Origin: Maridesulfovibrio salexigens DSM 2638
GTDB taxonomy: Bacteria; Desulfobacterota; Desulfovibrionia; Desulfovibrionales; Desulfovibrionaceae
Assembly: GCF_000023445.1 (NCBI RefSeq)
Contig: NC_012881.1
Coordinates: 439,501 to 503,500 of the forward strand
DNA length: 64,000 bases
Direction of reading: 5' to 3'
The notes under the pieces are model-generated. The model did not search any database and had not been told where the DNA came from. It worked only from the letters and a program-made list of their open reading frames with translations. Below are positions 34,082 to 49,835 of this stretch, piece after piece; positions within the stretch are counted from its first letter, which is position 1; each line of letters opens with the position of its first letter. The position numbers and the translations under genes were made by a program.

Positions 34082-37000
34082 ATGAAGAAATTTCTACTCA
34101 ATCTGCTCAAGATCATCTTTATTGTGCTGCTTTTTGTGCTGGCGGCAGTAGCCTCCTATGCCCTTGTTACTTATATGGGCTGGCCGTGGTGGGCCGGAGC
34201 TTGTCTTTTCGGCGGGGTGATCGGGCTGGTTGCAGCTTTCTTTTTCATCCGCAAATGGATGTTGCGCAGGCGGGAGAAGAAGTTTGTAAAACGCATTGTG
34301 GATCAGGATGATTCGGCCATTGCCGCCGCCCCGCTGCATGAGCGTTCCCGCTTGCAGGAACTTCAGACCCGCTGGACTGAGGCTGTGCAACTGCTCCAGA
34401 ATTCGGAACTGCGCAGGCATGGCAACCCCTTGTACGCTCTGCCGTGGTTTATGGTTTTCGGTGAATCTGATTCCGGTAAGAGCACTGCGGTCGCCAGCAG
34501 CAGGCTGACCTCTATTCTTTCAGATGTAGGGCCTACTCCCGGAGTTTCCGCTACACGCAATTGTGACTGGTGGTTTTTTGAAGAGGCGGTCATCCTTGAT
34601 ACTGCCGGACGTTACGCCATTCCCATTGATGAATCACGGGATAAGGAAGAGTGGGAGAAATTCCTGACACTGCTGGTCAAATACCGCAAACGTGAGCCTC
34701 TCAACGGGTTGATCATCACTCTGCCTGCCGACCGTCTGCAATCCGGAGATGAAGACAGTCTGAACGAATACGGGCGCAGTCTGCGGCGGCGGGTCAATGA
34801 ACTTATGCGCGTGCTGGGTGTGCGTTTTCCTGTCTACGTATTGCTGACCAAGATGGATCTTGTTTTCGGGCTCAAAGGGCTGACTGAGGTTCTTCCTGAT
34901 GAGGCCCGTTCGCAAGCAATGGGCATGGTAAATGAGTCCATGACTTCCGACCCCGAAGAATTTGTGGATACTGCTGTTTCCGGTGTTATCGAACGTCTGC
35001 GTGCTCTGCGTATGACCCTGTTGGATCGGGAGAACAGCTTTGATCCCGCTTTCCTGCTCTTTGCCGAGGAACTGGACCGTTTACGCCCGCGCATCCGGGC
35101 TTTTGCGGACGGTGTGTTCGAGGAGAATCCCTATCAGGAGCAACCGCTGTTCCGGGGAATTTATTTTTCCAGCGGCGAACAGAGCGGTGAGCAGAGTTCC
35201 GCTTTTCTGGACAGTCTTCCTTCTTTGCAGAACGTTGAAACAAAGCTTCCGGGCACTCGTCAGGGTTTGTTCCTGCACGACTTCTTTTCCAAGGTCCTGA
35301 CCCGTGACCGCAATTTGTTTACCCCCATAATTGAATTCCTCAAATGGAAGCTGCTCACCCGCAATATGGGAATGCTGGTCTGGTTGTTGTTGCTGTTTTT
35401 CGTTTGCGGCCTGTTCAGCATGTCCTTTTTGGGCAACCGTCGTGCTCTGGATGATCTTTTTACCGCCTTCCCGAAACCACCAGAGTTCTCTGAAAAGATT
35501 GATGAATGTGTTGTAGAGATGGAAGGTTTCCGTCAGAAAATAGTGCATTTGCACGATTTGAATTCAAACTGGTGGGTTCCGCGTATGGGGCTTGATGTCA
35601 GCCTTGAAGCGGAGCAGAAGGTCCGCAAACTTTATGTTGAAAAGTTTGAATCTGCATTGCTGAAACCTGTGGATACTCAGTTGTCACGAACAATTGAAAG
35701 CTTGCATGCCGGTTCTTCGGAGCAGGAAGTCAGTGATTTCGTCAAGTTGCTCGGCTGGCGCATTGATCTGCTCGATAATCGGATTGAAGGCGGAAAAGTA
35801 AAGCCCTTGGCTCCGTACGAACTACCTTCCGGTCAGGCCATGTCTATGGCTGTTCCGGGGTTCGAGTCGGACCTGATGAAGTATTATGGGCAAACTTATA
35901 GTTCATATCTTGATTGGATTGAAAATGATGAAGGGTTAAAAGAGCAAAGGCTGCTCTTGCAGGCACGTCTGGGTAAAGTCTTCAGTCTTAAGGGATCGGA
36001 TTTTAAGTGGCTGGTGGATTGGGTTGATTCCAATCCTGAAGTGCAGCCGGTGACCCTGCGCGATTTTTGGGGCGGGCCGCGACTGCATTTTGAAAACGAG
36101 GTCCATGTTCCCCCTGCTTACACGACCACCGGACACAAGATGCTTACTGATTTCCTTGGGGAATTACGCAGGGCAATGCCGGATAATACGGATTTCGCAC
36201 AACGAGAAAAGGATTTCTGGAATTGGTATGCAGAGCAATTCTACCGCTCATGGTATTCTTTTTCCGAGCATTTTACCGAAGGTGAGCGTCAGTTGCTGAC
36301 TAAAGATGATTACAGCAGCATGGCTCATACTATGGCTAATGCCGACAACCCTTACTTCAAGCTGCTAGGCAGGATGAAAGAGGAATTTTCGGTAATAAAG
36401 GGATTGGGAACTGCCCCGGATTGGATTGCTGATCTTTTTGATTTCAACATTGTGCTGACCCAGTACAAGGCCATGAAAGCCAAGGGTGTAGAAGAATCTT
36501 CCCAGAAGGCAGAGGAGTCCCTGCGTAAAATCATGGCGGATCTGGGCGGCAAGATGGCTGAAAATATTGAGGCCCGTATTGAGGGAGCCAAACAGCTCGA
36601 TGAGTACATGCAGGTGTTGCATGATCTGGCCGGGTTTACCACCAGTCAGGAAACAGCCTTTAAGAGTGCGGCTGCTCTTTATCCTGCTACCGGACAGAGT
36701 TCTGAAGGCAGCGGGGCGGAGAGCAAGTCTGCCGGAGCAGTGAAGAAGAATCCTGTGGACGGAGCTACCAGAGCTATGGCCGCTTTGCGCACCCGCATGC
36801 GTAGTGGAGGGCAGGGCACCCATATGTTTTGGAATCTTGTGGCCGGACCGCTGGAGTTCATGGTCTACGTGATCACCATGGAAGCTTCCTGCGAATTGCA
36901 GCAGCTTTGGGAAGGCAAAGTGCTGGCTGAAACGGCCCACGTACCTTCGGACAAGCTGCGGACCACTTTGTTCGGCAAAAGCGGAATTGTTAATAAGTTT

Positions 37001-37585
37001 ACTTCAAGCAGTGCTTCTCCTTTCCTGAGCAAAGGAGTTAAGGGCTGGCAAAGCCGTCAATGGCTGGGAATTCCTTTTCCGTTCCGTGAAGAATTCTTTG
37101 TTTTTCTCAATGACGGAGAGCAGGGAGCACAGGAAATTCAGCCTGAATACAAGGTCGGATTGTCTACCATTCCTACTTCCGTGAATTCCAATGCCACGCA
37201 GGAGCCGTACGCCACAACCCTATCCCTTGAATGCGGCAGTGGCAGACAGGAGTTGGTAAACTATAACTATTCCGAAAAGACGACTTTCACATGGAAGCCT
37301 GATCAGTGCGGTACAACCACCCTGACCATCCGTTTTCCGGGTATTGATCTGGTCAAGACCTATGAGGGCAAGCTTGGTTTTGCCAAGTTCTTGTCCGAGT
37401 TCCGTAATGGCGAGGTCAATTTCAGTCCCAAGGATTTTCCGGATCAGGCCAAGGGCTTGCAAGGTCTGGGCGTAAGCAGTGTAAAGGTCGGCTACAATTT
37501 CAGCGGTGCTGTTCCGGTTATCGAGGTCTTACAGATCAAGCCCTTGAACCTGCCCAATTTTATAACCGATTGCTGGGAAAATTAA
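34082..37585 (+). CDS. tssM: T6SS membrane-complex protein TssM (IcmF-like)
   Basis: A 1167-residue IcmF/VasK protein. Two N-terminal membrane helices (~residues 7-30 and 35-58) precede a cytoplasmic NTPase domain with Walker A GESDSGKS at 127-134. A third helix lies near residue 430 (MGMLVWLLLLFFVCGLF), followed by a ~720-residue periplasmic domain that contacts TssJ. The Walker A lysine is intact, which suggests an active NTPase. Its stop is 10 bp before the AMIN-like gene. Confidence 0.96.
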   Translation: MKKFLLNLLKIIFIVLLFVLAAVASYALVTYMGWPWWAGACLFGGVIGLVAAFFFIRKWMLRRREKKFVKRIVDQDDSAIAAAPLHERSRLQELQTRWTEAVQLLQNSELRRHGNPLYALPWFMVFGESDSGKSTAVASSRLTSILSDVGPTPGVSATRNCDWWFFEEAVILDTAGRYAIPIDESRDKEEWEKFLTLLVKYRKREPLNGLIITLPADRLQSGDEDSLNEYGRSLRRRVNELMRVLGVRFPVYVLLTKMDLVFGLKGLTEVLPDEARSQAMGMVNESMTSDPEEFVDTAVSGVIERLRALRMTLLDRENSFDPAFLLFAEELDRLRPRIRAFADGVFEENPYQEQPLFRGIYFSSGEQSGEQSSAFLDSLPSLQNVETKLPGTRQGLFLHDFFSKVLTRDRNLFTPIIEFLKWKLLTRNMGMLVWLLLLFFVCGLFSMSFLGNRRALDDLFTAFPKPPEFSEKIDECVVEMEGFRQKIVHLHDLNSNWWVPRMGLDVSLEAEQKVRKLYVEKFESALLKPVDTQLSRTIESLHAGSSEQEVSDFVKLLGWRIDLLDNRIEGGKVKPLAPYELPSGQAMSMAVPGFESDLMKYYGQTYSSYLDWIENDEGLKEQRLLLQARLGKVFSLKGSDFKWLVDWVDSNPEVQPVTLRDFWGGPRLHFENEVHVPPAYTTTGHKMLTDFLGELRRAMPDNTDFAQREKDFWNWYAEQFYRSWYSFSEHFTEGERQLLTKDDYSSMAHTMANADNPYFKLLGRMKEEFSVIKGLGTAPDWIADLFDFNIVLTQYKAMKAKGVEESSQKAEESLRKIMADLGGKMAENIEARIEGAKQLDEYMQVLHDLAGFTTSQETAFKSAAALYPATGQSSEGSGAESKSAGAVKKNPVDGATRAMAALRTRMRSGGQGTHMFWNLVAGPLEFMVYVITMEASCELQQLWEGKVLAETAHVPSDKLRTTLFGKSGIVNKFTSSSASPFLSKGVKGWQSRQWLGIPFPFREEFFVFLNDGEQGAQEIQPEYKVGLSTIPTSVNSNATQEPYATTLSLECGSGRQELVNYNYSEKTTFTWKPDQCGTTTLTIRFPGIDLVKTYEGKLGFAKFLSEFRNGEVNFSPKDFPDQAKGLQGLGVSSVKVGYNFSGAVPVIEVLQIKPLNLPNFITDCWEN

Positions 37586-38541: not shown

Positions 38542-39813
38542 TTAACCGCATTTGGTGCCGGTTCCGGTACAACAGGCGTCTGCGATGCTGCCACGCCGTC
38601 CCTTATGAATATCCATATTTCCGCCACTGTAGACCGTAGCCAGTGCGTCCTCGATGAACCCGCCGATTACGTAAGGTTCCACGCCGTCTTCAGCCAGCAT
38701 TACCTGCGGGGTTTCCCCGATGGCTGCTGCCAGCACTGCGCGACAGTCGCTGAGAGTGGCTGCAAGGTCGGTCCATCGCTGCGGACCGCATCCGGCTTTG
38801 GGTGCGGGCCGTTTTTCAACCAGTTTGAAGCCGCCACTTCCATCTTCGGCCCAGATGTGGAATTCCTTAGCTTCACCAAGATGCTGGTTGACCAACATTC
38901 CTTCGCGGGAGGCAACTGCCACGTAAGGGCGTGGACCTTTCACATCAATAGGTTTCAGTTCAGAACAGGATTTCATGGTTCCGCAGAGGGCAACTGATTT
39001 ATCGTCACCTAAAAGCCCTACAGCATCAGCACGGCAGCGGCGGCAGTGGGTCATCTGTTCGATTACTTTGCATGCTTCTTTGCGCAGGGGACCGATGGTC
39101 TCATGTCCCGGCTCAATTATGTCTGCAAAAGGCGTATCTGCTGTCGGCTTAAGCGGGATCATATTCTGGATGTCCGCGCCGAGATCGGCACATACTTTGG
39201 AAACTTCAGCAATATGATGCTCATTGATACCGGGGATGACGATGGAATTGATTTTTACGGTGATGCCCCGTTCCTTCAGGCCCTTGATCGCTGCAAGCTG
39301 GCGCTCAAGCAGAACTTTCGCGCCTTTTTCGCCGTGATAGACCACCTTGCCGTCCTTGACCCATGAATAAATCTTGGCTCCGATTTTTGGATCGATCGCA
39401 CTGATGGTGATGGTTACGTGGGATACGCCCAGTTCTTTTAGTTCATCCAGATAAGGCAGGATACCCATGCCGTTGGAGGACAGGCAGAAAATCAGGTGCG
39501 GATGTTTTTTATTGAGTAAACGCATGGTTTCCAGAGTCTCTTCCGGGTTGGCAAAAGGGTCGCCCGGTCCTGCTATACCGGCAACGGTGATGCGCGGTTC
39601 TTTCTCCAGTACTGCATCCATGTATTCCGCAGCCTGAAAAGGTTTAAGGACACTGCTGGTCACGCCGGGACGCGATTCGTTAACGCAATCATATTTGCGG
39701 TTGCAGTAGTTGCACTGGATGTTGCACTTGGGGGCTACCGGGAGATGAACACGTCCACAGGAGCCTGCGGTTTCTTTGTTGAAGCACGGGTGTTTAGTAG
39801 TATCTTTCTGCAT
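38542..39813 (-). CDS. nifB: Nitrogenase cofactor biosynthesis radical SAM protein NifB
   Basis: A 423-residue NifB that fuses two [4Fe-4S] clusters with a SAM-derived carbide into the NifB-co precursor of FeMo-co. N-terminal HPCF is followed by the radical SAM motif C30-x3-C34-x2-C37. Other conserved cysteines occur around THCRRCRADA. The C-terminal ~110 residues form a NifX/NafY-like domain (VAVASREGMLVNQHLG). It is the last gene of the nif operon. This is the functional copy; a paralogue lacking the three cysteines is at 43428-44558. Confidence 0.97.
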   Translation of the reverse strand: MQKDTTKHPCFNKETAGSCGRVHLPVAPKCNIQCNYCNRKYDCVNESRPGVTSSVLKPFQAAEYMDAVLEKEPRITVAGIAGPGDPFANPEETLETMRLLNKKHPHLIFCLSSNGMGILPYLDELKELGVSHVTITISAIDPKIGAKIYSWVKDGKVVYHGEKGAKVLLERQLAAIKGLKERGITVKINSIVIPGINEHHIAEVSKVCADLGADIQNMIPLKPTADTPFADIIEPGHETIGPLRKEACKVIEQMTHCRRCRADAVGLLGDDKSVALCGTMKSCSELKPIDVKGPRPYVAVASREGMLVNQHLGEAKEFHIWAEDGSGGFKLVEKRPAPKAGCGPQRWTDLAATLSDCRAVLAAAIGETPQVMLAEDGVEPYVIGGFIEDALATVYSGGNMDIHKGRRGSIADACCTGTGTKCG

Positions 39814-39848: not shown

Positions 39849-41207
39849 TTACATGTAGCCGTAGCCAACGGAGTTATCTGCCTGCTTCTTTTCCAGCATG
39901 GCGTTTACAATGCGGTCGAAGAGATGCTGCGTTCCGCGATAGCCGAGGGTCGGGATGCGCTGTCCGCCGAAGCGGTCATGGACTGGAAAACCGACCCTGA
40001 TCAGGGGAATGTCCCATGCTTTGGCGTAGCGGTATCCCTTGGAATGTCCGATAAGCATATCGGGTTTCAGTTCTTCGGCTCTTTCGGAAATGTCGTGGAA
40101 GTCAACGCCTTCATGGATTTCGGGGATGGTTCTGCCCACGCCTTCGGTTACAGCAGTGACTGCTTCGGCCATGCCTTTTTTCTTGGCACCGGAACCGGCA
40201 AGGATAACGTCCACGCCGATTTCAGCCAGAAATGCACACAGTCCGGTTACGAGGTCTTCCTCGCCGTAAACAACCGCCCGTTTACCGAACACGTATTTGT
40301 GTCCGTCAACGTAGGCATCGATCAGTCTGCCGCGTTCACGTTCGTAACGGGCGGGCATTTCCTTGCCGGAAACAGCTTCAAGTGTTTCGAAGAAAATATC
40401 CGACTCGCGCAGTCCCATAGGCAGACCTATGCGGTGGTTTGCCACTCCGAAACGTTCCGCAAGGCTGCTTCCGCCGCTCTTGGCGGGCACGCAGCGACCT
40501 AGTTCGATGGTTGCCTTCGCGCCGGACATTTTCTTGATGTCCTCAACCGGAGTCCCGCCAACCGGGATTTTCATGTAATCCTCAAGAGCCGGACCATCGA
40601 GTGTTTCGGAAATATCAGGCAGAATGGTTGCTTTCAGGCCGAAGTCTTCACAAATATCAAAGAGGTGGCGAACGTCTTCGCAGGAAACCATGTTGGGCAG
40701 GATGTTGATGTGCCCGTCATTTTCTGCCTTCTCAGTGCAAAGCTGCTCAACCATGGAGCGCACTGCCCCGTGCCAGCCGTCCACGTGTGTGCCATTGTAG
40801 CTGGGAGTGGAAACCTGCACTATGTCGGGCAGATTCAGGTCACCGAATTCGTCAAAGAATTCCTTGAGATACATGGGTACATCATCGCCGATGGTTTCAG
40901 TCAGGCAGGTCGTCGCTACGCCGACGATTTTCGGCTCGTACTTTTTCATCACATTGAGGATGCCCTTCTTCAGGTTCGGGCCGCCGCCGTAAATCGCGTG
41001 CTTTTCTCCCAAAGCTGAGGAAGCGATGTCCACAGGTTCCCGGAAATGGCTGATGATATAACGGCGCATGTAAGTAGCGCAGCCCTGTGAGCCGTGCAGG
41101 AAAGGAATGGAGCCTTCTACGCCTCTGAATGCGAGCGATGCGCCAAGGGGTGTGCAGAGTTTGCAGGCATTAGTTGTGGATGTGTAATTTTTACTCTTGG
41201 TAGTCAT
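39849..41207 (-). CDS. nifN: Nitrogenase cofactor scaffold subunit NifN
   Basis: A 452-residue NifK-like protein that forms the NifEN scaffold on which NifB-co matures to FeMo-co. The N-terminal NACKLCTPLGASLAFRGV, the GSQGCATYMRRY segment and CLTETIGDD mirror the P-cluster side of NifK, with family differences. It starts 2 bp after the nifE stop and is translationally coupled. Confidence 0.95.
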   Translation of the reverse strand: MTTKSKNYTSTTNACKLCTPLGASLAFRGVEGSIPFLHGSQGCATYMRRYIISHFREPVDIASSALGEKHAIYGGGPNLKKGILNVMKKYEPKIVGVATTCLTETIGDDVPMYLKEFFDEFGDLNLPDIVQVSTPSYNGTHVDGWHGAVRSMVEQLCTEKAENDGHINILPNMVSCEDVRHLFDICEDFGLKATILPDISETLDGPALEDYMKIPVGGTPVEDIKKMSGAKATIELGRCVPAKSGGSSLAERFGVANHRIGLPMGLRESDIFFETLEAVSGKEMPARYERERGRLIDAYVDGHKYVFGKRAVVYGEEDLVTGLCAFLAEIGVDVILAGSGAKKKGMAEAVTAVTEGVGRTIPEIHEGVDFHDISERAEELKPDMLIGHSKGYRYAKAWDIPLIRVGFPVHDRFGGQRIPTLGYRGTQHLFDRIVNAMLEKKQADNSVGYGYM

Positions 41208-41209
41208 GG

Positions 41210-42574
41210 CTATTCTCCTGTCTTTTTGGCTCTACGGGGTACAAAGTTCCAGACCGGGCTCATGGCTGATGAATGAATTTCACGGGCGAAGTTGAGCATG
41301 CCTTCGAAACCTTCAAGGGCTTCCTTGCGCTCGTGGTTGTGATCGCAGAAACCGACACCCATCTTGAAGGCGATGGGACGTTCTTTTACGCCGCCTACGA
41401 AGATATCAACGTCCTTTTCTTTAATGAACGCTGAGAGTTCGAGTGGGTTGGCGTCATCAACGAGGATGGTGCCGGGATCGGATATGCGTTCCAGCTCAGC
41501 ATAATCTTCCTTGGTTCCGGTCTGGGACCCGACCATAACTACTTTCATACCCAGATGGCGGAAGGCCTTGAGCAGGGAGAATGCCTTGAAAGAACCGCCC
41601 ACGTACATGGCGACTTTTTTGCCTTCGAGGTCTTTGCGCATGCGGGCTAGTTCGGGCATGAGTTTTGAGAGTTCTTCGCGGACGAGATCTTCCGTGCGTT
41701 TGACAATGTCCGGGTCGACATCCTTGAAGAAATCAGCAACCTGATAGAGGGAATCGGCCATGTCTTCGATGCCGAGGTAGGAGACGCGCATAAAGGGCGT
41801 GCCGTATTCCTCTTTCATCATTTTTGCCAAATCCAATGTCGCACCCGAACACTGTACAAGGTTAAGGGCCGCACCGTGGCTGCGCCCGATATCCTTCACA
41901 CGTCCGTCACCGGTAATGTTGGCGACGACCTCCACCCCCATTTTTTTGAAATATTCGCGGATGATCCAGATTTCCCCGGCAAGGTTGAAGTCGCCGAGAA
42001 TGTTCACGGAAAGCGGGGAGATATCCGAGGTGTCCTCGGTTCCCACCAGTTTAAACATGGCTTTGCAGGCCGCGAGATAACCTTCACGCTTGCTGCCCTT
42101 GAATCCTTCAGACTGTACCGGGAGTACGGGGATGCCTTTTTTCGCGCTCATCTTTCTACAGACCGCTTCAAGGTCATCGCCGATGATGCCGACAATGCAG
42201 GTGGAGTAGACAAAGGCTGCCTTGGGGCTATGGCGGTCGATGAGTTCATCAAGGGCGGCTTCAAGTTTTTTTTCGCCGCCGAAGATGACGTCTGTTTCCT
42301 GCAAGTCTGTGGAAAAGGAGAGGCGGTGCAGTTCCGGTCCGCTGGAAAGTGCGCCACGGATGTCCCAGGTGTAAACCGCACAGCCGATAGGCCCGTGCAC
42401 CAGGTGCAGGGCATCGGCTATGGGATAGAGAACGACCCTTGAACCGCAGAAAACACAGGCTCTCTGACTCACTGCTCCGGCAAGTGATTCCCGGTTGCAG
42501 GCCATGTCCAGTGCTCCCTCGCCCGTGCGGTGGATCTGGTCTTTACGTTCTTCTAATATTGTATATTCATTCAT
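41210..42574 (-). CDS. nifE: Nitrogenase cofactor scaffold subunit NifE
   Basis: A 454-residue NifD-like scaffold subunit. Cys motifs RACVFCGSR, HGPIGCA and STCIVGIIGDD hold the [4Fe-4S] cluster shared with NifN. GGAG precedes the ATG. It follows the GNAT gene in the operon and pairs with nifN immediately downstream. Confidence 0.95.
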   Translation of the reverse strand: MNEYTILEERKDQIHRTGEGALDMACNRESLAGAVSQRACVFCGSRVVLYPIADALHLVHGPIGCAVYTWDIRGALSSGPELHRLSFSTDLQETDVIFGGEKKLEAALDELIDRHSPKAAFVYSTCIVGIIGDDLEAVCRKMSAKKGIPVLPVQSEGFKGSKREGYLAACKAMFKLVGTEDTSDISPLSVNILGDFNLAGEIWIIREYFKKMGVEVVANITGDGRVKDIGRSHGAALNLVQCSGATLDLAKMMKEEYGTPFMRVSYLGIEDMADSLYQVADFFKDVDPDIVKRTEDLVREELSKLMPELARMRKDLEGKKVAMYVGGSFKAFSLLKAFRHLGMKVVMVGSQTGTKEDYAELERISDPGTILVDDANPLELSAFIKEKDVDIFVGGVKERPIAFKMGVGFCDHNHERKEALEGFEGMLNFAREIHSSAMSPVWNFVPRRAKKTGE

Positions 42575-42588
42575 GATGTGCTCCGTTG

Positions 42589-43044
42589 CTATGCGTTCGC
42601 CTTGCGAAGGCAGATCAGGCTTGTGTTGCTCCAGCCTATCTTTTCGTAGAATTTCAGGGCCGGGGTATTGTCGCAGTCTGCAAGCAGTTGCAGTCTTGTT
42701 GCTCTGTTCTCTTCTGCGAATTCGAGAATGGCTTCCATAAGCATGGTGCCGATTCCCTCCCCTTGCCGATCGTTGCGGACAACCACGTCTTCAACAAGGA
42801 TAGACGGGCCGCCTTCAGCGGTTGAGATTACAATCTGACCGGTGCACATGCCGACCACTCCACCCTGTTCTTCTGCAACCAGAATGCGTGCCCGGGGATT
42901 GCCTAGCAGCATTCTCAACCCCTTCATCTGTCTGTTCCCATCCGCTGAAAAGTCCTTCTCGACGGAGAAAAGTGACTTCAGCAGATCGGTCATGGGGGCC
43001 AGATCAGCAGAGTTGGCGTTGCGTATATGAACTGTGGCCGGCAT
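42589..43044 (-). CDS. GNAT-family N-acetyltransferase within the nif operon
   Basis: A 151-residue GNAT protein. The acetyl-CoA-binding motif A (VVRNDRQGEGIGTMLM, with Q/R-x-x-G-x-G/A) is intact, and the C-terminal strand has ALKFYEKIGW. It lies between the ferredoxin and nifE, so it is co-transcribed with nif genes. The substrate is unknown; it might acetylate a Nif protein or a small molecule. Confidence 0.88.
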   Translation of the reverse strand: MPATVHIRNANSADLAPMTDLLKSLFSVEKDFSADGNRQMKGLRMLLGNPRARILVAEEQGGVVGMCTGQIVISTAEGGPSILVEDVVVRNDRQGEGIGTMLMEAILEFAEENRATRLQLLADCDNTPALKFYEKIGWSNTSLICLRKANA

Positions 43045-43108: not shown

Positions 43109-43411
43109 TTAATCCAGCAGATAGTCTGCGCAGGGTTCGCCGTCTTCAAGGCCATCAAGGATTTCATCAATGGCTTCTTCGGAATCCACACCCTTGAACC
43201 ACCAGTTCTCAGGTTGAACCACGAGGATGGGGCCGTTATCGCACTGCTTAAGACAGCTGGTGGCTACCACCAGTGCGTCTATGCCGCGGTCGATGATTTC
43301 TTCTTCAATGTATTGCAGGAAACCATCGGTCTGTTTGTGACAGATACCTTTGGGTGCGCCGGCAGCGCGGAAACTCTGACAACAGATGATCATTCTTTCA
43401 GGGGTAGCCAT
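43109..43411 (-). CDS. Thioredoxin-like [2Fe-2S] ferredoxin
   Basis: A 100-residue ferredoxin of the thioredoxin-like [2Fe-2S] class known from Clostridium pasteurianum and nif regions. Candidate cluster ligands are C10 or C11, C24, C53 and C57 (C-x3-C in SCLKQC). The start at 43411 is chosen because GAGGAG lies 6 nt upstream, which also removes an out-of-place basic N terminus. It probably carries electrons for cofactor assembly or nitrogenase. Confidence 0.88.
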   Translation of the reverse strand: MATPERMIICCQSFRAAGAPKGICHKQTDGFLQYIEEEIIDRGIDALVVATSCLKQCDNGPILVVQPENWWFKGVDSEEAIDEILDGLEDGEPCADYLLD

Positions 43412-43427: not shown

Positions 43428-44558
43428 TTACTTTTTGCACTTGCCTTTTTTGCCGCCGCCGTAGAGCACATCCACTGTGCCTTCGACGTTGTCTTCCGAG
43501 ATCACGGTTCTGATTCCGTTGGCGGCTAGAATTTTTTTCGGAGTTTCCCCTGCTGCGGCGCAGAGCAGTACGAAACAGTCATTCAGAATCTCGGCCAGCT
43601 TTTCCCAGCGGGCTGCTCCTCCGCCCGGTTCCGGGGCCTCTCTTGTCTCAAGCAGGCAGGCCAGACCGTCTTCACGCGGGCCGTAGATCATGATTTTATG
43701 GGCGTGGCCCAGATGCAGGTCGATATCCATTCCGCCGGAACTTGCCACCGCAACATTGGGGCGGCTAACGCTAGGTTTAGGCAGAGAACTTGATGTCGGT
43801 CGTTCCAGCTCCATGTCTGAACCGCATCTGAGCCACGGCTCCATAAGTTCAATATGTTTTGCAGCCAGTTCCCGGGCAGTTTTTATCTGCGCGTCGCTTA
43901 CTGCGGAAAATTCGCTTTTCCTTTCAGGGATGAAAGGAATTAATCCCATGATGTCTGCATCAAGTGTCTTAACTGCGATGGCGATGCTTTCGATCTGGTC
44001 AATATTCTCAGAGTATAGAGTTGTGTTGACCTTCACGGTCAGGCCTGCATTTTTGAAAGCCTTGATGGTTGCTCCCTGTTCTTTCATGAGCATTATGCTG
44101 GCTTCGGGCAGGGGGATGTTTTTGGTGGACGGGCGAATCCATGCATAGATTTTTTCGGCGGTAGCTGAGTCCGCCGCATCCACCAAAACAGTTATGTGGG
44201 AAATATTGAGTTCCGCCAGTTTTTCCGCGTGCTTTTCGCCGCCGATACCCAGAGTGGTCAGGCAGAGGTTCATGCGCGGGTATTTTTCTCTGACCATTTT
44301 CAGGGTTTTGTAGGTGGTTTCAAAATCAGCCAGCGGGTCGCCGGGACCGGTAATGCCTACAACTTTGATCTTTTTGCCGGAGTTGATCAGTTCATCAAGC
44401 ATGGCAACTGCGTCTTCCGGGAGCATGGCTGCGGGAAGCTTGGCGTCAGGAGCGAATCTGGTGCGGGCAAAAGTCTTGGGAGCAACCGGAAGGTGAATGC
44501 GGCCGACTGATGCACGGGCCGAGGGGCCGAAACAGGGATGTGAAGTAGAAGTAGTCAT
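43428..44558 (-). CDS. NifB-like paralogue lacking the radical SAM cysteines
   Basis: A 376-residue protein colinear with NifB along its whole length: HPCF near the start, GRIHLPVAPK, GITGPGDPLADFETT, a TIM-barrel core, and a C-terminal NifX-like domain (VAVASSGGMDIDLHLGHAHKI). At the radical SAM site the C-x3-C-x2-C of NifB reads T29-x3-T33-x2-A36 in the same register, so the SAM-bound [4Fe-4S] cluster cannot form in the usual way. C9 of HPCF is kept; the HCRRC pair of NifB is reduced to one Cys. The frame is intact, so it is not an obvious pseudogene. It may be a carrier or assembly factor for NifB-co. It lies between nifK and the ferredoxin. Confidence 0.9.
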   Translation of the reverse strand: MTTSTSHPCFGPSARASVGRIHLPVAPKTFARTRFAPDAKLPAAMLPEDAVAMLDELINSGKKIKVVGITGPGDPLADFETTYKTLKMVREKYPRMNLCLTTLGIGGEKHAEKLAELNISHITVLVDAADSATAEKIYAWIRPSTKNIPLPEASIMLMKEQGATIKAFKNAGLTVKVNTTLYSENIDQIESIAIAVKTLDADIMGLIPFIPERKSEFSAVSDAQIKTARELAAKHIELMEPWLRCGSDMELERPTSSSLPKPSVSRPNVAVASSGGMDIDLHLGHAHKIMIYGPREDGLACLLETREAPEPGGGAARWEKLAEILNDCFVLLCAAAGETPKKILAANGIRTVISEDNVEGTVDVLYGGGKKGKCKK

Positions 44559-44578
44559 GGTGTTGCTCCGTTTTGTTT

Positions 44579-44645
44579 GGCCTCCGGCGGAAAATCCCCT
44601 ACTAGGGATTCCAAAGGGGCTTAGCTCCTTTGGCCGCCGGAGGCG
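44579..44645. repeat. Dispersed hairpin repeat, copy 5 (nifK/nifB-like junction)
   Basis: GCCTCCGGCGG and CCGCCGGAGGC arms (44580-44590, 44634-44644) enclose two inner hairpins (AATCCCCTACTAGGGATT and CCAAAGGGG...CTCCTTTGG). It lies 20 bp upstream of the NifB-like start and downstream of nifK. Confidence 0.8.
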
Positions 44646-44683
44646 AAATCATCTGGCAGAAGCGCGATAGCGCCTCAAATCAA

Positions 44684-46057
44684 TTAAAGTACAAGTTCAA
44701 AGGTTTCTTCGGGAGTATCGCGGTCAATGCGATCCATGAGCAGTCCGAGGATCTTTTCAAGCAGTCTCAGACCTCCCTTGTAGCCCACGGTGGGGAAGTA
44801 CTGGTGTCCCTGACGGTCTGTGATGGGGAAGCCCCAGCGCAGGAACGGGATGTCTTCGTCGCGGGCAATGTATTTGCCGTAGGAGTTACCCATGAGTAGA
44901 TCCACAGGTTCGTTTTTGATCCACTGATGCATGAGGAACATGTCGCCTTTAGCTTTGACCTTGCATTCGTAAGGCATGTCCGCAGTAAGTTCCTTGATCC
45001 GTTTTTCGAATTTCTTGCCGGGAGTACCGGTAACTACGTAGACCGGGCACATATCGATGGAACGGAGGAATTCCACCATGGAAATGAGCTGGTCGGGATC
45101 ACCGTAAATGGCGACCTTCTTGCCGTAGAGGTACTGGTGCATGTCCGAAATCATATCCACCAGCTGTCCGCGCTCGTAAGATACGGACTCGGGGATGGAT
45201 GCTCCGGCTACGGTGCGCAATACGTCGATGAAACGGTCGGTTGCTTTCAGGCCGAAAGGCATATCCAGCACGGTACAGGGGACCTTGTGCTTGGAGTCGA
45301 GCCAGCGGGCTCCGTCTGCGGAGCACCATTCGCCGAGTGCGATGGTTCCGGTAGCTTGTCCGGCCTCTTTCAGTTCTTTTATGGTTACGCCGCCGTCAGG
45401 GAACATTTTGTATTCGCCGCTAAGGGGACCGTTCAGTACGCCGGAGGTATCCGGGAACATGGTGATGTCCACCCCGATCATGGAGCAGAGACGCTTGATC
45501 TCTTCCATGTCGCAGGGTTCCACCCAACCGGGGATGATGTTGACCTTGCCGTTCTTTTGGGAAGTAGGCTCGGCGAGCTGGGCCATGGCTTTGACCATGT
45601 TGGAGAAACCGGTAACGTGCGATCCCACGTAACTGGGGGTCGGTGCGCCGAAAACAGTTTTGCCTTCGGGGATTTTGCCTTCTTTGCTGGCCTTGGTGAT
45701 GATCTGGGTCAGGTCGTCACCGATGGTTTCGGAAAGGCAGGTGGTGTGCACCGCGATGACTTCCGGTTCGTAGACCGTGAAGATATTGTTGATGGCCTGA
45801 ATGAGGTTGGCCTGTCCGCCGAAAACCGAAGCGCCTTCAGTAAAGGAACTGGTCGCCGCGGAAACGGGTTCTTTATAGTGTCTGGTCAGCATGGACCTGT
45901 GATAGGCACAGCAGCCCTGTGAACCGTGCGAGTGGGGCAGGCAGCCTTTTACTCCCAGAGCGGCGTACATGGCACCGATGGGCTGACAAGTCTTGGCCGG
46001 GTTAATGACCAGTGTCTTGCGATCACTTATTTCTGTGGGGGTGTGTCTGAGTAACAT
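44684..46057 (-). CDS. nifK: Nitrogenase MoFe protein beta subunit NifK
   Basis: A 457-residue NifK, shorter than the ~520-residue Azotobacter type because it lacks the N-terminal extension. It holds the P-cluster cysteines in KTCQPIGAMYA, GSQGCCAY and TTCLSETIGDD. Together with the insertion in NifD this places it in the Clostridium/Desulfovibrio-type (group II) Mo nitrogenases, an inference from lengths and motifs. It is separated from nifD by a 155-bp gap filled by the 127-bp structured repeat. Confidence 0.97.
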   Translation of the reverse strand: MLLRHTPTEISDRKTLVINPAKTCQPIGAMYAALGVKGCLPHSHGSQGCCAYHRSMLTRHYKEPVSAATSSFTEGASVFGGQANLIQAINNIFTVYEPEVIAVHTTCLSETIGDDLTQIITKASKEGKIPEGKTVFGAPTPSYVGSHVTGFSNMVKAMAQLAEPTSQKNGKVNIIPGWVEPCDMEEIKRLCSMIGVDITMFPDTSGVLNGPLSGEYKMFPDGGVTIKELKEAGQATGTIALGEWCSADGARWLDSKHKVPCTVLDMPFGLKATDRFIDVLRTVAGASIPESVSYERGQLVDMISDMHQYLYGKKVAIYGDPDQLISMVEFLRSIDMCPVYVVTGTPGKKFEKRIKELTADMPYECKVKAKGDMFLMHQWIKNEPVDLLMGNSYGKYIARDEDIPFLRWGFPITDRQGHQYFPTVGYKGGLRLLEKILGLLMDRIDRDTPEETFELVL

Positions 46058-46212: not shown

Positions 46213-47847
46213 TTATTCCCACACGAAAGTAGCGGTGAGCTCGGGGTTTTCCTGCCAGGGGGCTTTCATGTAGCTCCAGACCTTGCTTCCTACGAGACGG
46301 TCAATTTCCTTGTAGAAGTTGATTGCGCCCTTGAATCCTGCGTAAGGTCCGCCGGAATCGTAGCTATGCAGCTGCTTTAAGGGCACGCCCAGTTTCTGGA
46401 TGGAGAACTTTTCCTTGATGCCTGCGCAGAAAAGGTCAGGTTTGAGGAGTTCCACCAGCTTTTCAGCTTCGTACTGGTTCAGGTCATCGATAATAATTGT
46501 GCCTTTATCCATGTCAGGGTTGAGGCCATCGTAATGTTTGAACTCGTATCCTGCGTCTTCAAGAGCTTTGATTTCCGCCTCGGTCTTGCGCGGGCTGTAG
46601 AGTTCCGGATCAGCTTCAACTTCGATTTCTTCAATGTTACGGGAGTCCGCATCAACCTTGATGTCCGGGATTACGCGGCGGCCTTCGTAGTCATCGCGGT
46701 GACCGAATTCGTAACCGGCGGAAAGAGTCTTCATGCCCATTTCATTGAACAGTTCCTGATAGTGGTGTGCACGTGATCCGCCCACGAAAAGCATGGCGGT
46801 CTTGCCTTCAGTGCGTGAACGCACGTCCTTGGCAGTGGCTTCCACTTCGGGCATTTCTTCGGCTATTACAGCTTCGATTTTGTCGATGAGTTTTTTGTCG
46901 CCGAAGTATTCACCGATTTTGCGCAGGGACTTTGCAGTTGCTTCCGCACCGATGAAGTTAACCTTGATCCACGGGATGCCGTATTTTGTTTCCAGCATGT
47001 CGGCCACGTAGTTGATTGAACGGTGGCACATGACACAGCTGAGGTCTGCGTGCTGGGCTGAGGCAAACTGGTCATAGGTTGAGTTGCCGGAGAAGGTTGC
47101 GATGTTGGTGATGCCGCATTTCTTGAGAATGCGGTCAATCTCAAAGCCGTCACCGCCGATGTTGTATTCGCCGAGCAGGTTGATCTTGTATTCCTCGGTG
47201 CGAGGTTCTTTGTTCTCACCAACAAGGTGGGTGAAAACCTGGTTGTTGGCGATATGGTGACCGGCGGACTGGGAAACACCCTTGTAACCTTCACAGGAGA
47301 AGCCGAAGACGTTGCAGTCGCCTAGTTTGGCTTTCATCTTTTTGGCTACGGCGTGTACATCGTCACCGATCAGACCTACCGGACAGGTGGAGAAGATGCA
47401 GATCCCCTTGGGATGGAAGAGATCGTAAGCTTCCTGAATGGCCGCTTCGAGTTTTTTTTCACCACCGAAGATGATGTCCTGATCCTGCATGTCCGTAGAA
47501 AAGCAGTAGGTCATGTAGTTTTCGCCGTCGGGACCGGGAGAGGTCTGGTTACGGCGGGTCAGCCATGAATAGAATCCGCAGCCGATGGGTCCGTGGGTGA
47601 TGTTAACGATGTCGCGGGTCGGGCCCATGATAACGCCCTTACAGCCTGCGTATGTGCAGCCGCGCATGGTGATGATACCGGGAATGGTTCTTACGTTAGC
47701 GACGATTTCGGGCGGTGCCTCGCTTTCAGTCGCTTCGTTGATCATAATCTGTTTGGCGCGCTTGCGGGCTACCTTGGGCGGATACTTCTTCAGAAGTTCT
47801 TCCTTGATGTCCGCCGGGTCCCACTGCACCACTTTGGTCTTACTCAT
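46213..47847 (-). CDS. nifD: Nitrogenase MoFe protein alpha subunit NifD
   Basis: A 544-residue NifD. P-cluster cysteines are in RGCTYAGCKG, GPIGCG and STCPVGLIGDD. The FeMo-co ligand Cys is in VMCHRSINY and the ligand His in LHSYDSGGPYAGF. The GHHIAN motif carries the His near the cofactor. A ~50-residue insertion (~390-440, with acidic and Lys-rich sequence) is the mark of Clostridium-type NifD. No VnfD/AnfD-specific features, so this is the Mo form. The start follows GGAGAG. Confidence 0.97.
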   Translation of the reverse strand: MSKTKVVQWDPADIKEELLKKYPPKVARKRAKQIMINEATESEAPPEIVANVRTIPGIITMRGCTYAGCKGVIMGPTRDIVNITHGPIGCGFYSWLTRRNQTSPGPDGENYMTYCFSTDMQDQDIIFGGEKKLEAAIQEAYDLFHPKGICIFSTCPVGLIGDDVHAVAKKMKAKLGDCNVFGFSCEGYKGVSQSAGHHIANNQVFTHLVGENKEPRTEEYKINLLGEYNIGGDGFEIDRILKKCGITNIATFSGNSTYDQFASAQHADLSCVMCHRSINYVADMLETKYGIPWIKVNFIGAEATAKSLRKIGEYFGDKKLIDKIEAVIAEEMPEVEATAKDVRSRTEGKTAMLFVGGSRAHHYQELFNEMGMKTLSAGYEFGHRDDYEGRRVIPDIKVDADSRNIEEIEVEADPELYSPRKTEAEIKALEDAGYEFKHYDGLNPDMDKGTIIIDDLNQYEAEKLVELLKPDLFCAGIKEKFSIQKLGVPLKQLHSYDSGGPYAGFKGAINFYKEIDRLVGSKVWSYMKAPWQENPELTATFVWE

Positions 47848-47865: not shown

Positions 47866-48240
47866 TTAGGCGATGGACTTCGCGCCTGTTTCTCCGGTTC
47901 TGACCCTGACTGCATCGCCTACGGGACAGATGAATATCTTTCCGTCACCGGGTTTGCCGGTTTTGTTCACTTCAATGATGGTCTCAATTATTGATTCCAC
48001 TGATTCTTCGGGAACAACTGCGGTAAGAACTCGTTTGGGATAAAGTTTGCCTTTTTCGCCGAGAACTGCGGCAGCTTCTTCGTAGCCGGATTCAACTCCC
48101 TCAAGGACTGCCGGATTGATGAAGCCTTTTCCGCGTCCCTGAGCCTCATGTGCGAAGAAGGCATCCAAGCCTGCTTCGGTGAGCGCTTTTTTAGTGCGGT
48201 TCATCATGTCCATCCGCACGACTGCGATGATTTCCTTCAT
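47866..48240 (-). CDS. nifI2: PII-like nitrogenase regulator NifI2
   Basis: A 124-residue GlnB-family protein, second of the tandem PII genes between nifH and nifD. In methanogens NifI1 and NifI2 together bind dinitrogenase and switch off activity when ammonium is present, responding to 2-oxoglutarate and ATP. GDGKIFICPV near the C terminus is the PII signature. The start at 48240 follows GAGG; the upstream in-frame ATG at 48255 overlaps nifI1 and is less likely. Confidence 0.93.
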   Translation of the reverse strand: MKEIIAVVRMDMMNRTKKALTEAGLDAFFAHEAQGRGKGFINPAVLEGVESGYEEAAAVLGEKGKLYPKRVLTAVVPEESVESIIETIIEVNKTGKPGDGKIFICPVGDAVRVRTGETGAKSIA

Positions 48241-48241
48241 G

Positions 48242-48589
48242 CTATGCCTCCTCAACGGGAGCTGCTTCGTTTACGCCTGAGCTGATGGTGTAGACATCCT
48301 CGACATCGGTCACAAAGATCTTGCCGTCACCGAAAGCGCCTTTTGTTCCTGAGCGGGCCGCATCCATGATGGTGTTGATTACGAAGTCCTTGTCATCAGC
48401 TTTGACTACGCTCATGAGCATGGTTTTGGGGATTTCGTCGTAGGTTACTTCGCCGATCTTGATACCGCGCTGTTTACCGCGGCCTGCTACGGAATATTTG
48501 GTTACAGCGGGGTAGCCGTTGTCCATGAGTGCGGCCAGTACGTCGTCCGCTTTTTCCGGTCTTACAATTGCTCTCACCATGATCATCAT
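48242..48589 (-). CDS. nifI1: PII-like nitrogenase regulator NifI1
   Basis: A 115-residue GlnB-family protein immediately downstream of nifH, the usual place of nifI1. The T-loop reads GRGKQRGIKIGEVTYDEIPK and lacks the GlnB uridylylation-site context. The C-terminal PII signature GDGKIFVTDVEDV is present. Start at 48589 (MMIMVRAIV) with GGAGAG upstream; the ORF could run upstream into the repeat at 48647-48734, but that extension is not conserved in character. Acts with NifI2. Confidence 0.94.
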   Translation of the reverse strand: MMIMVRAIVRPEKADDVLAALMDNGYPAVTKYSVAGRGKQRGIKIGEVTYDEIPKTMLMSVVKADDKDFVINTIMDAARSGTKGAFGDGKIFVTDVEDVYTISSGVNEAAPVEEA

Positions 48590-48646
48590 TAGTTCTCTCC
48601 TTGCTCTGCTATTTGATGCGCTGCGCGCTTTTAAGAATGGATTGAT

Positions 48647-48734
48647 ATGCCTCCGGCGGCCCTCCGGGGCCAAAGAAACTTTTTGGGAAAAGTTTCTCTG
48701 GACTCTTCAAAAACATTTATTAGGGCTTCGCCTT
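48647..48734 (-). repeat. Dispersed hairpin repeat, copy 6 (nifH/nifI1 junction)
   Basis: GCCTCCGGCGGC, then stem CCAAAGAAACTTTT / AAAAGTTTCTCTGG, then CTCTTCAAAAACATTTATTAGGGCTTCGCC. It is the reverse-complement relative of copy 3. It may stabilise or partly terminate the nifH message so that NifH exceeds NifDK. Confidence 0.8.

Positions 48735-48796: not shown

Positions 48797-49835
<1,039 letters not shown>

Follow-up and report, generated by a model that had tools for sequence, protein, structure and literature searches.

A NifB-derived protein without radical-SAM cysteines in the nif operon of Maridesulfovibrio salexigens, a possible cofactor carrier

The nif operon of Maridesulfovibrio salexigens DSM 2638 contains two genes of the NifB family. 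One of them encodes a protein, here called pseudo-NifB, in which the three cysteines of the radical-SAM motif are replaced. What could such a protein do, and is it retained or decaying? The locus lies in a 64,000-nucleotide stretch of the genome (the window; positions 439,501 to 503,500 of NC_012881.1), and coordinates below refer to the window.

The pseudo-NifB gene and its operon

The gene order is nifH-nifI1-nifI2-nifD-nifK-[pseudo-NifB]-2Fe-2S ferredoxin-GNAT-nifE-nifN-nifB, with a divergent nifV-like gene whose model match is below the curated cut-off. The operon genes from nifH to nifB are on the minus strand. Family matches identify nifD (46213..47847), nifK (44684..46057), nifE (41210..42574), and nifH (48797..49624; the open reading frame is listed to 49798, and the match begins at residue 60). 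The names nifI1 (48242..48673, from the position of the reading frame) and nifI2 (47866..48255) were given by place; P-II family membership of the latter comes from Pfam. The product of nifN (39849..41207) scores 325.8 bits, just below the 326.8 cut-off. The ferredoxin gene (43109..43411) matches ferredoxin models below their cut-offs; its reading frame is listed from 43471, but the likely start is 43411, 16 bases past the pseudo-NifB stop. The Pfam-identified GNAT acetyltransferase gene (42589..43044) recurs in related nif operons. The operon nifB (38542..39813) alone in the genome scores over the NifB cut-off (TIGR01290), and the cluster ligands are intact in its alignment. Its C-terminal tail contains conserved glycines and cysteines, with C415 in 56 of 57 aligned rows and C422 in all 57. 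A run of large plus-strand reading frames lies beside the operon (10054-38315), including a 1167-amino acid protein (34082-37585) that we take to resemble the type VI secretion TssM/IcmF protein.

The pseudo-NifB gene (43428..44558, minus strand) is an open, intact frame of 376 amino acids located between nifK and the ferredoxin gene. The gap that separates it from nifK is predicted to form a strong branched stem-loop (−57.5 kcal/mol for 44559-44690, z = −4.5), and the stretch 44578-44650 within this gap has 23 matches genome-wide, itself included. Pseudo-NifB is 32% identical to the operon NifB over 391 columns (194 bits, E = 2e-62). The CX3CX2C motif of NifB provides the ligands of the SAM-bound cluster. 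In the pairwise alignment, C30, C34, and C37 of NifB become T29, T33, and A36 of pseudo-NifB (codons at 44451..44474, which also encode R32 and R34), in register and without a frameshift, just as an earlier note on this DNA had claimed. The same note had described the HPCF motif and the NifX-like tail as kept; the alignment agrees, and both Pfam domains are still recognized, PF04055 just over its cut-off (31.3 bits against 29.5) and PF02579 (Nitro_FeMo-Co) at 39.3 bits against 26.3. Also kept are GPGDP, the histidine of GR(V/I)HLP, and residues C9, H22, C99, and C245, which correspond to C10, H23, C110, and C260 of NifB. Three further losses had been overlooked: ~10 residues directly after the CX3CX2C site are deleted, which in NifB form a flexible loop, NRKYDCVNESRPG, that contains C43 and leads into ExRPG, also absent from pseudo-NifB; the first cysteine of CRRCRADAxG is gone; and most of the cysteine-containing C-terminal tail is missing.

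Scores with the equivalog models place the protein in neither NifB nor NifX. It scores 164.2 bits with the NifB equivalog model TIGR01290, below the 343.65 needed, and 21.2 bits with the nifX model TIGR02663, far below the 112 needed. The three radical-SAM cysteine ligands are absent, and so is the ExRP motif, deleted with the loop. HPC is present in the window's protein and absent from several orthologues (e.g., L044, L087, and L096), the AGPG motif is one residue off (TGPGDP), and only the second cysteine of Cx2CRxDAxG is kept, the first being absent from all 76 proteins of the family counted below. The TxTxN motif reads TVLVD; since the window's own NifB reads TITIS, this motif is not strict here. 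Alignment and the predicted structure point to a degenerate radical-SAM barrel in residues 1-248 (43815..44558), and Pfam and alignment place a NifX-like domain at residues 266-366 (43461..43763). An AlphaFold2 model built from 33 sequences had a mean pLDDT of 86.1 and a pTM of 0.69. Its best Foldseek matches were the NifB structures 6y1x, 7bi7, 7jmb, and 7jma, and NifX (9ian) ranked 25th.

Both trivial explanations of the cysteine loss were rejected. An assembly error is excluded because five congeners (79 to 83% identity) also lack the cysteines. The same congeners, together with the purifying selection described below, rule out a fresh pseudogene.

Conservation of the slot family

Orthologues were sought at the class and phylum levels. 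The search of 348 genomes of the class gave NifB-family matches at E ≤ 1e-20 in at least 172, and 60 pseudo-NifB loci were taken from among the matches listed. A phylum sample of 395 genomes contributed 14 further pseudo-NifB loci and six other loci; in this sample, at least 17 genomes carry a slot gene (i.e., a gene in the nifK-ferredoxin slot), and 112 have any match at E ≤ 1e-30. One more relative (L037), from a deltaproteobacterial MAG, came from a search of genome contigs. The homologue search that the earlier note had proposed thus yielded 76 proteins without CX3CX2C, the window's included, from 21 genus-level groups (20 genus codes and the MAG). This count set includes L094, which is cut by a contig end, and excludes both L154, which keeps the cysteines, and slot genes obtained later.

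Wherever both neighbours of pseudo-NifB could be read, they are nifK on one side and the 2Fe-2S ferredoxin gene on the other. A script that scanned this slot in 118 loci called 88 occupied, 10 empty, 1 with flanks far apart, and 19 unreadable. Two of the occupied calls (L149 and L150) were wrong, as ordinary nif genes are located there, leaving 86 occupied slots; these counts are not frequencies, the loci having mostly been selected for holding a match. Apparent stand-alone domains in genomes G080 and G081 proved to be contig-end artefacts. A search of plasmids gave 243 records, all below 60% identity, 30 of which were viewed. On a Nitratidesulfovibrio vulgaris plasmid (L175), the nifK-ferredoxin gap is 190 bases long and contains no gene. 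Given this plasmid and the 10 empty loci, some nif operons of the group can do without the slot gene.

The CX3CX2C triad is found in none of the 76 slot proteins, nor does such a string occur anywhere in their sequences. In NifB numbering, C30 is present in none, C34 in one, and C37 in two, never together, and C43 and C257 are missing from all. The K-cluster ligands of MthNifB, C18, H31, C115, C260, and C263 (PMC9692996), were equated by alignment with C10, H23, C110, C257, and C260. Four of the five are present in the window's protein, and across the family C10 is found in 63 of 76 proteins (an upper figure, since the alignment near it is loose in divergent rows), H23 in 58, C110 in 57, and C260 in 63. 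The four occur together in 45 proteins from 7 of the 21 groups, and the family as a whole therefore does not depend on the K ligands; a conserved K-cluster site as a family-wide function is not upheld. By comparison, C10, H23, the triad, C43, C110, C257, C260, and H311 are present in all 72 NifB rows.

Conservation of the NifX-like domain is of a different order. H311, R346, W347, D356, and C357 are each present in 75 of 76 slot proteins and in 21 of 21 groups, the sole exception being the truncated L094, so that the cofactor-binding histidine is found in every counted copy that reaches its position. When columns conserved at ≥95% were counted, the barrel had 25 of 248 in the 76 slot proteins versus 105 of 270 in 67 NifBs from the same loci, and the NifX-like domain had 25 of 101 versus 35 of 102. 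The domain in NifB of this phylum mostly reads N-x-H-L-G-E...W, whereas slot proteins mostly read D-x-H-L-G-[HQ]...Y, a pattern closer to NifX and to the three NifBs from other phyla that were compared. Where the slot is empty, inspection by eye of NifB's own domain revealed no pattern and no compensating change at its diagnostic residues.

Residues have also been gained. NifB Q33 is replaced by R or K (position 32) in 72 of 76 slot proteins and N35 by R or K (position 34) in 70. All 76 contain R142-P143 in place of the NifB residues, and N309 has become D in 71, W321 Y in 67, and T136 L in 69. This set of newly conserved residues is different from what plain decay gives.

Nei-Gojobori dN/dS ratios are in line with retention. 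Among six congeners (15 pairs), the median for the slot protein was 0.157 (0.086 to 0.185), with 0.151 for the barrel and 0.114 for the NifX-like domain; medians in the same congeners were 0.051 for NifB, 0.027 for NifE, 0.038 for NifN, 0.041 for NifK, and 0.041 for NifD. In 14 pairs from five other sets, analyzed with trimmed starts, the ratio was 0.072 to 0.437 for the slot protein and 0.026 to 0.277 for NifB, the former exceeding the latter in 13 pairs. The slot protein is thus under purifying selection, weaker than that on NifB. Neutral decay, the outcome for which the earlier note had put forward a dN/dS comparison, is not indicated by a ratio of ~0.16 in the window's genus against 0.05 for NifB.

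Variants in the slot and a probable single origin

The same slot is occupied by other forms of the gene. In genus g46, all three genomes examined encode there the NifX-like domain alone, ~115 to 120 amino acids (L165, 13645-14016; L166, 5342-5692; L160, 7258-8466). The slot barrel of genus g2 (L159, L191, and L192) lacks a complete triad, with one of the three cysteines in two aligned rows. Three slot genes keep CX3CX2C: L193 (10026-11426, genome G272), L154 (6499-7860, G274), and L174 (4157-5521, G275). The products of the latter two also keep C43 but lack the HPC cysteine, H23, C110, C257, and C260; in that of G272, the triad, the loop, H23, and CxxCRADAxG remain, and the HPC cysteine, C110, and the cysteine of FC(L/V)S are missing. 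The cysteine-keeping genes have thus lost K-cluster ligands, the converse of the loss in pseudo-NifB.

A careful tree was built from 310 columns, with the motif, the loop, and the CxxC left out. All 32 slot rows formed one clade (support 100/100), within which the three cysteine-keeping rows were a subclade (100/100) and the stand-alone domains grouped with the main slot group (80/96). A quick tree of the domain (104 columns) separated the stand-alone and pseudo-NifB domains, together 49 rows, from the rest by a branch with an SH-aLRT of 99.5, and another quick tree (support 93) added two further groups to the slot clade. The clade is on a long branch, and the careful tree does not fix the point at which it joins the NifB proteins of the phylum. 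A recent lineage-specific duplication is rejected, as the slot rows of this one clade come from six family-level groups. The simplest history would be one duplication of a full nifB, after which its descendants shed parts in different orders; all slot lineages read have retained the NifX-like domain, and no other part is shared in this way. Purifying selection, the conserved place, and this single origin together bear out the earlier proposal of a NifB without SAM-cluster ligands that is retained in a nif operon.

Possible function and relation to known cofactor carriers

We propose, at a probability of about one half, that pseudo-NifB is a cofactor carrier of the NifX/NafY type derived from NifB. 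In the phylum to which these sulfate reducers belong, an old nifB duplicate would have become fixed in the nifK-ferredoxin slot and given up NifB chemistry to become a carrier of cofactor clusters. H282 of its NifX-like domain aligns with NifX H35, which binds an apex of NifB-co before NifX hands NifB-co to NifEN (PMC13128457). By analogy, H282 may take an apex of NifB-co or FeMo-co, and pseudo-NifB may hold the cluster between its synthesis on NifB and its delivery. The barrel, rebuilt around a conserved Arg-x-Arg, could serve docking or shielding, with the basic residues R32 and R34 in the former SAM-cluster site perhaps facing the anionic cluster. The client would be either NifEN, which NifX serves, or apo-NifDK, which NafY serves. 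A carrier of NifB-co had already been suggested in the earlier note; conservation of the NifX-like domain and its histidine throughout the family supports that suggestion, and the function itself is deduced from sequence. Against the carrier reading stand the presence of the same NifX-like domain in NifB itself, where Klebsiella oxytoca does not need it for NifB function (PMC5715403), the empty slots, and the lack of a compensating change in NifB at slot-empty loci.

The distribution of NifX is relevant here. None of the 348 class genomes contains a nifX over the TIGR02663 cut-off. Weaker matches (E ≤ 1e-12) were found in three of them: L179 (G329) at 95.8 bits, L180 (G197) at 93.6, and L181 (G048) at 51.5. 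The absence may reflect distant members missed by the model, which at E ≤ 0.001 does not report the stand-alone slot protein that was tried. Genomes with an empty slot also lack nifX, so these can have no strict need of a separate carrier. Azotobacter can dispense with NifX and has other NifX-like proteins, including the NifB tail and NafY (PMC13128457). When PDB chains were searched with the slot profile, 1p90 (3.8e-5) came above NifX (1e-3), whereas the NifB profile at E ≤ 1 lists NifX and not 1p90. We take 1p90 to be the NafY core. As the place after nifK recalls nifY/nafY and 1p90 is slightly ahead of NifX, NifDK is as plausible a recipient as NifEN; the evidence for a likeness to NafY rather than NifX is thin.

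A bolder version of the carrier reading, which we regard as rather unlikely, is that a radical-SAM enzyme became the chaperone of its own product. A conserved Arg-x-Arg pocket rebuilt from the SAM site, the surviving K-site ligands, and the NifX-like histidine would hold a cofactor precursor in two places during hand-over, and one lineage would then have discarded the barrel, yielding a newly made NifX. Alternatively, the carrier could be centred on the barrel, storing a [4Fe-4S] or [8Fe-8S] K-type cluster at C9, H22, C99, and C245 and passing it to NifB. These residues pair with C18, H31, C115, and C263 of MthNifB (PMC9692996), and MaNifB variants with a K1-only or K2-only module and without the SAM cluster could be reconstituted with clusters (PMC6053413). 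The window's protein retains these four ligands, as do 45 of 76 orthologues (7 of 21 groups), which gives this idea, also raised in the earlier note, some weak support, but it remains unlikely: the fifth ligand is missing in 76 of 76 proteins, at least one of the other four in 31, the loop with the K1 glutamate ligand is deleted, and the congener L044 has lost two of the four (H23 and C110).

We think it equally unlikely that the protein is a structural or regulatory partner, an inactive subunit complexed with NifB or NifEN that tunes activity. The retained barrel fold, as predicted with a mean pLDDT of 86.1 and NifB as the best Foldseek matches, and the 32% identity to NifB would suit such a role; slot genes without a barrel speak against it, as does the report that MaNifB is monomeric (PMC6053413). 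The appearance of R32-x-R34 and R142-P143 as conserved replacements of NifB residues, with GPGDP largely kept, could also mean that the old SAM-cluster pocket now binds another anion, such as homocitrate, a nucleotide, or an S-adenosyl compound. Stand-alone slot proteins lack the R32/R34 region, however, and we consider this new ligand or chemistry improbable. Slow decay of a dispensable duplicate appears very improbable. It would account for a slot dN/dS that is about threefold the NifB value in the window's genus and above NifB in 13 of 14 pairs elsewhere, up to 0.44, for the empty slots, and for the loss of parts in different orders; it fits poorly with frames that remain open in 76 proteins from 21 groups, ratios well below 1, a constant position, and residues newly conserved in the family.

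In the literature searched, subscription papers being outside its scope, we recognized no description of a cysteine-less NifB copy. A paper on Pseudodesulfovibrio methanolicus places nifB_1 and nifB_2 in the nif cluster, with orthologous clusters in the genus, and glosses both as NifB; cysteines are unmentioned in the available part of the text (PMC11505543). One of the two is probably the slot gene. Arragain et al. 2017 removed NifB candidates without all motifs (390 sequences, reduced by 28%, to a stated 289; PMC5715403), and a filter of this kind, as described in the available part of that paper, would hide the slot family. Some genes annotated as nifB in this phylum encode copies without catalytic cluster ligands, a caution for anyone counting nitrogen-fixation genes or choosing a NifB for engineering. 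How NifB-co travels from NifB to NifEN, and FeMo-co to NifDK, are current questions. The slot family provides a NifB scaffold from which nature has removed the chemistry, and the slot also holds natural intermediates, with the SAM cysteines kept, the cysteines lost, or the barrel lost, so that the role of each part is testable singly.

Overall, the slot protein would be a NifX/NafY-type carrier by inference and NifB by descent, but not NifB by membership. With two-domain bacterial NifB (TIGR01290) it is colinear and shares domain order, GPGDP, the NifX-like tail, and common ancestry, as well as HPC in the window's copy; it differs in lacking CX3CX2C, the ExRP loop, and Cx2CRxDAxG and in scoring far below the model cut-off. 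With NifX (TIGR02663; 9ian) it shares the D-x-H-[LF]-G domain with the cofactor-binding histidine in the same column, but it is far below the nifX cut-off, is fused to a NifB barrel, and is located after nifK, whereas nifX usually follows nifEN. The Paenibacillus NifX-like proteins that are nearer to the NifB tail than to NifX are also encoded beside nif genes, and split NifB3 copies there have one motif missing (PMC8287671); a two-domain NifB without SAM cysteines is unmentioned in the available part of that paper. The layout of NafY/NifY is shared too: a NifX-like domain, with a histidine, comes after a partner domain. Among NifX-type PDB chains, the slot profile matches 1p90 best. Klebsiella nifY is located after nifHDK. 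The N-terminal part of pseudo-NifB, unlike that of NafY, is a NifB barrel and not the NafY N-terminal domain.
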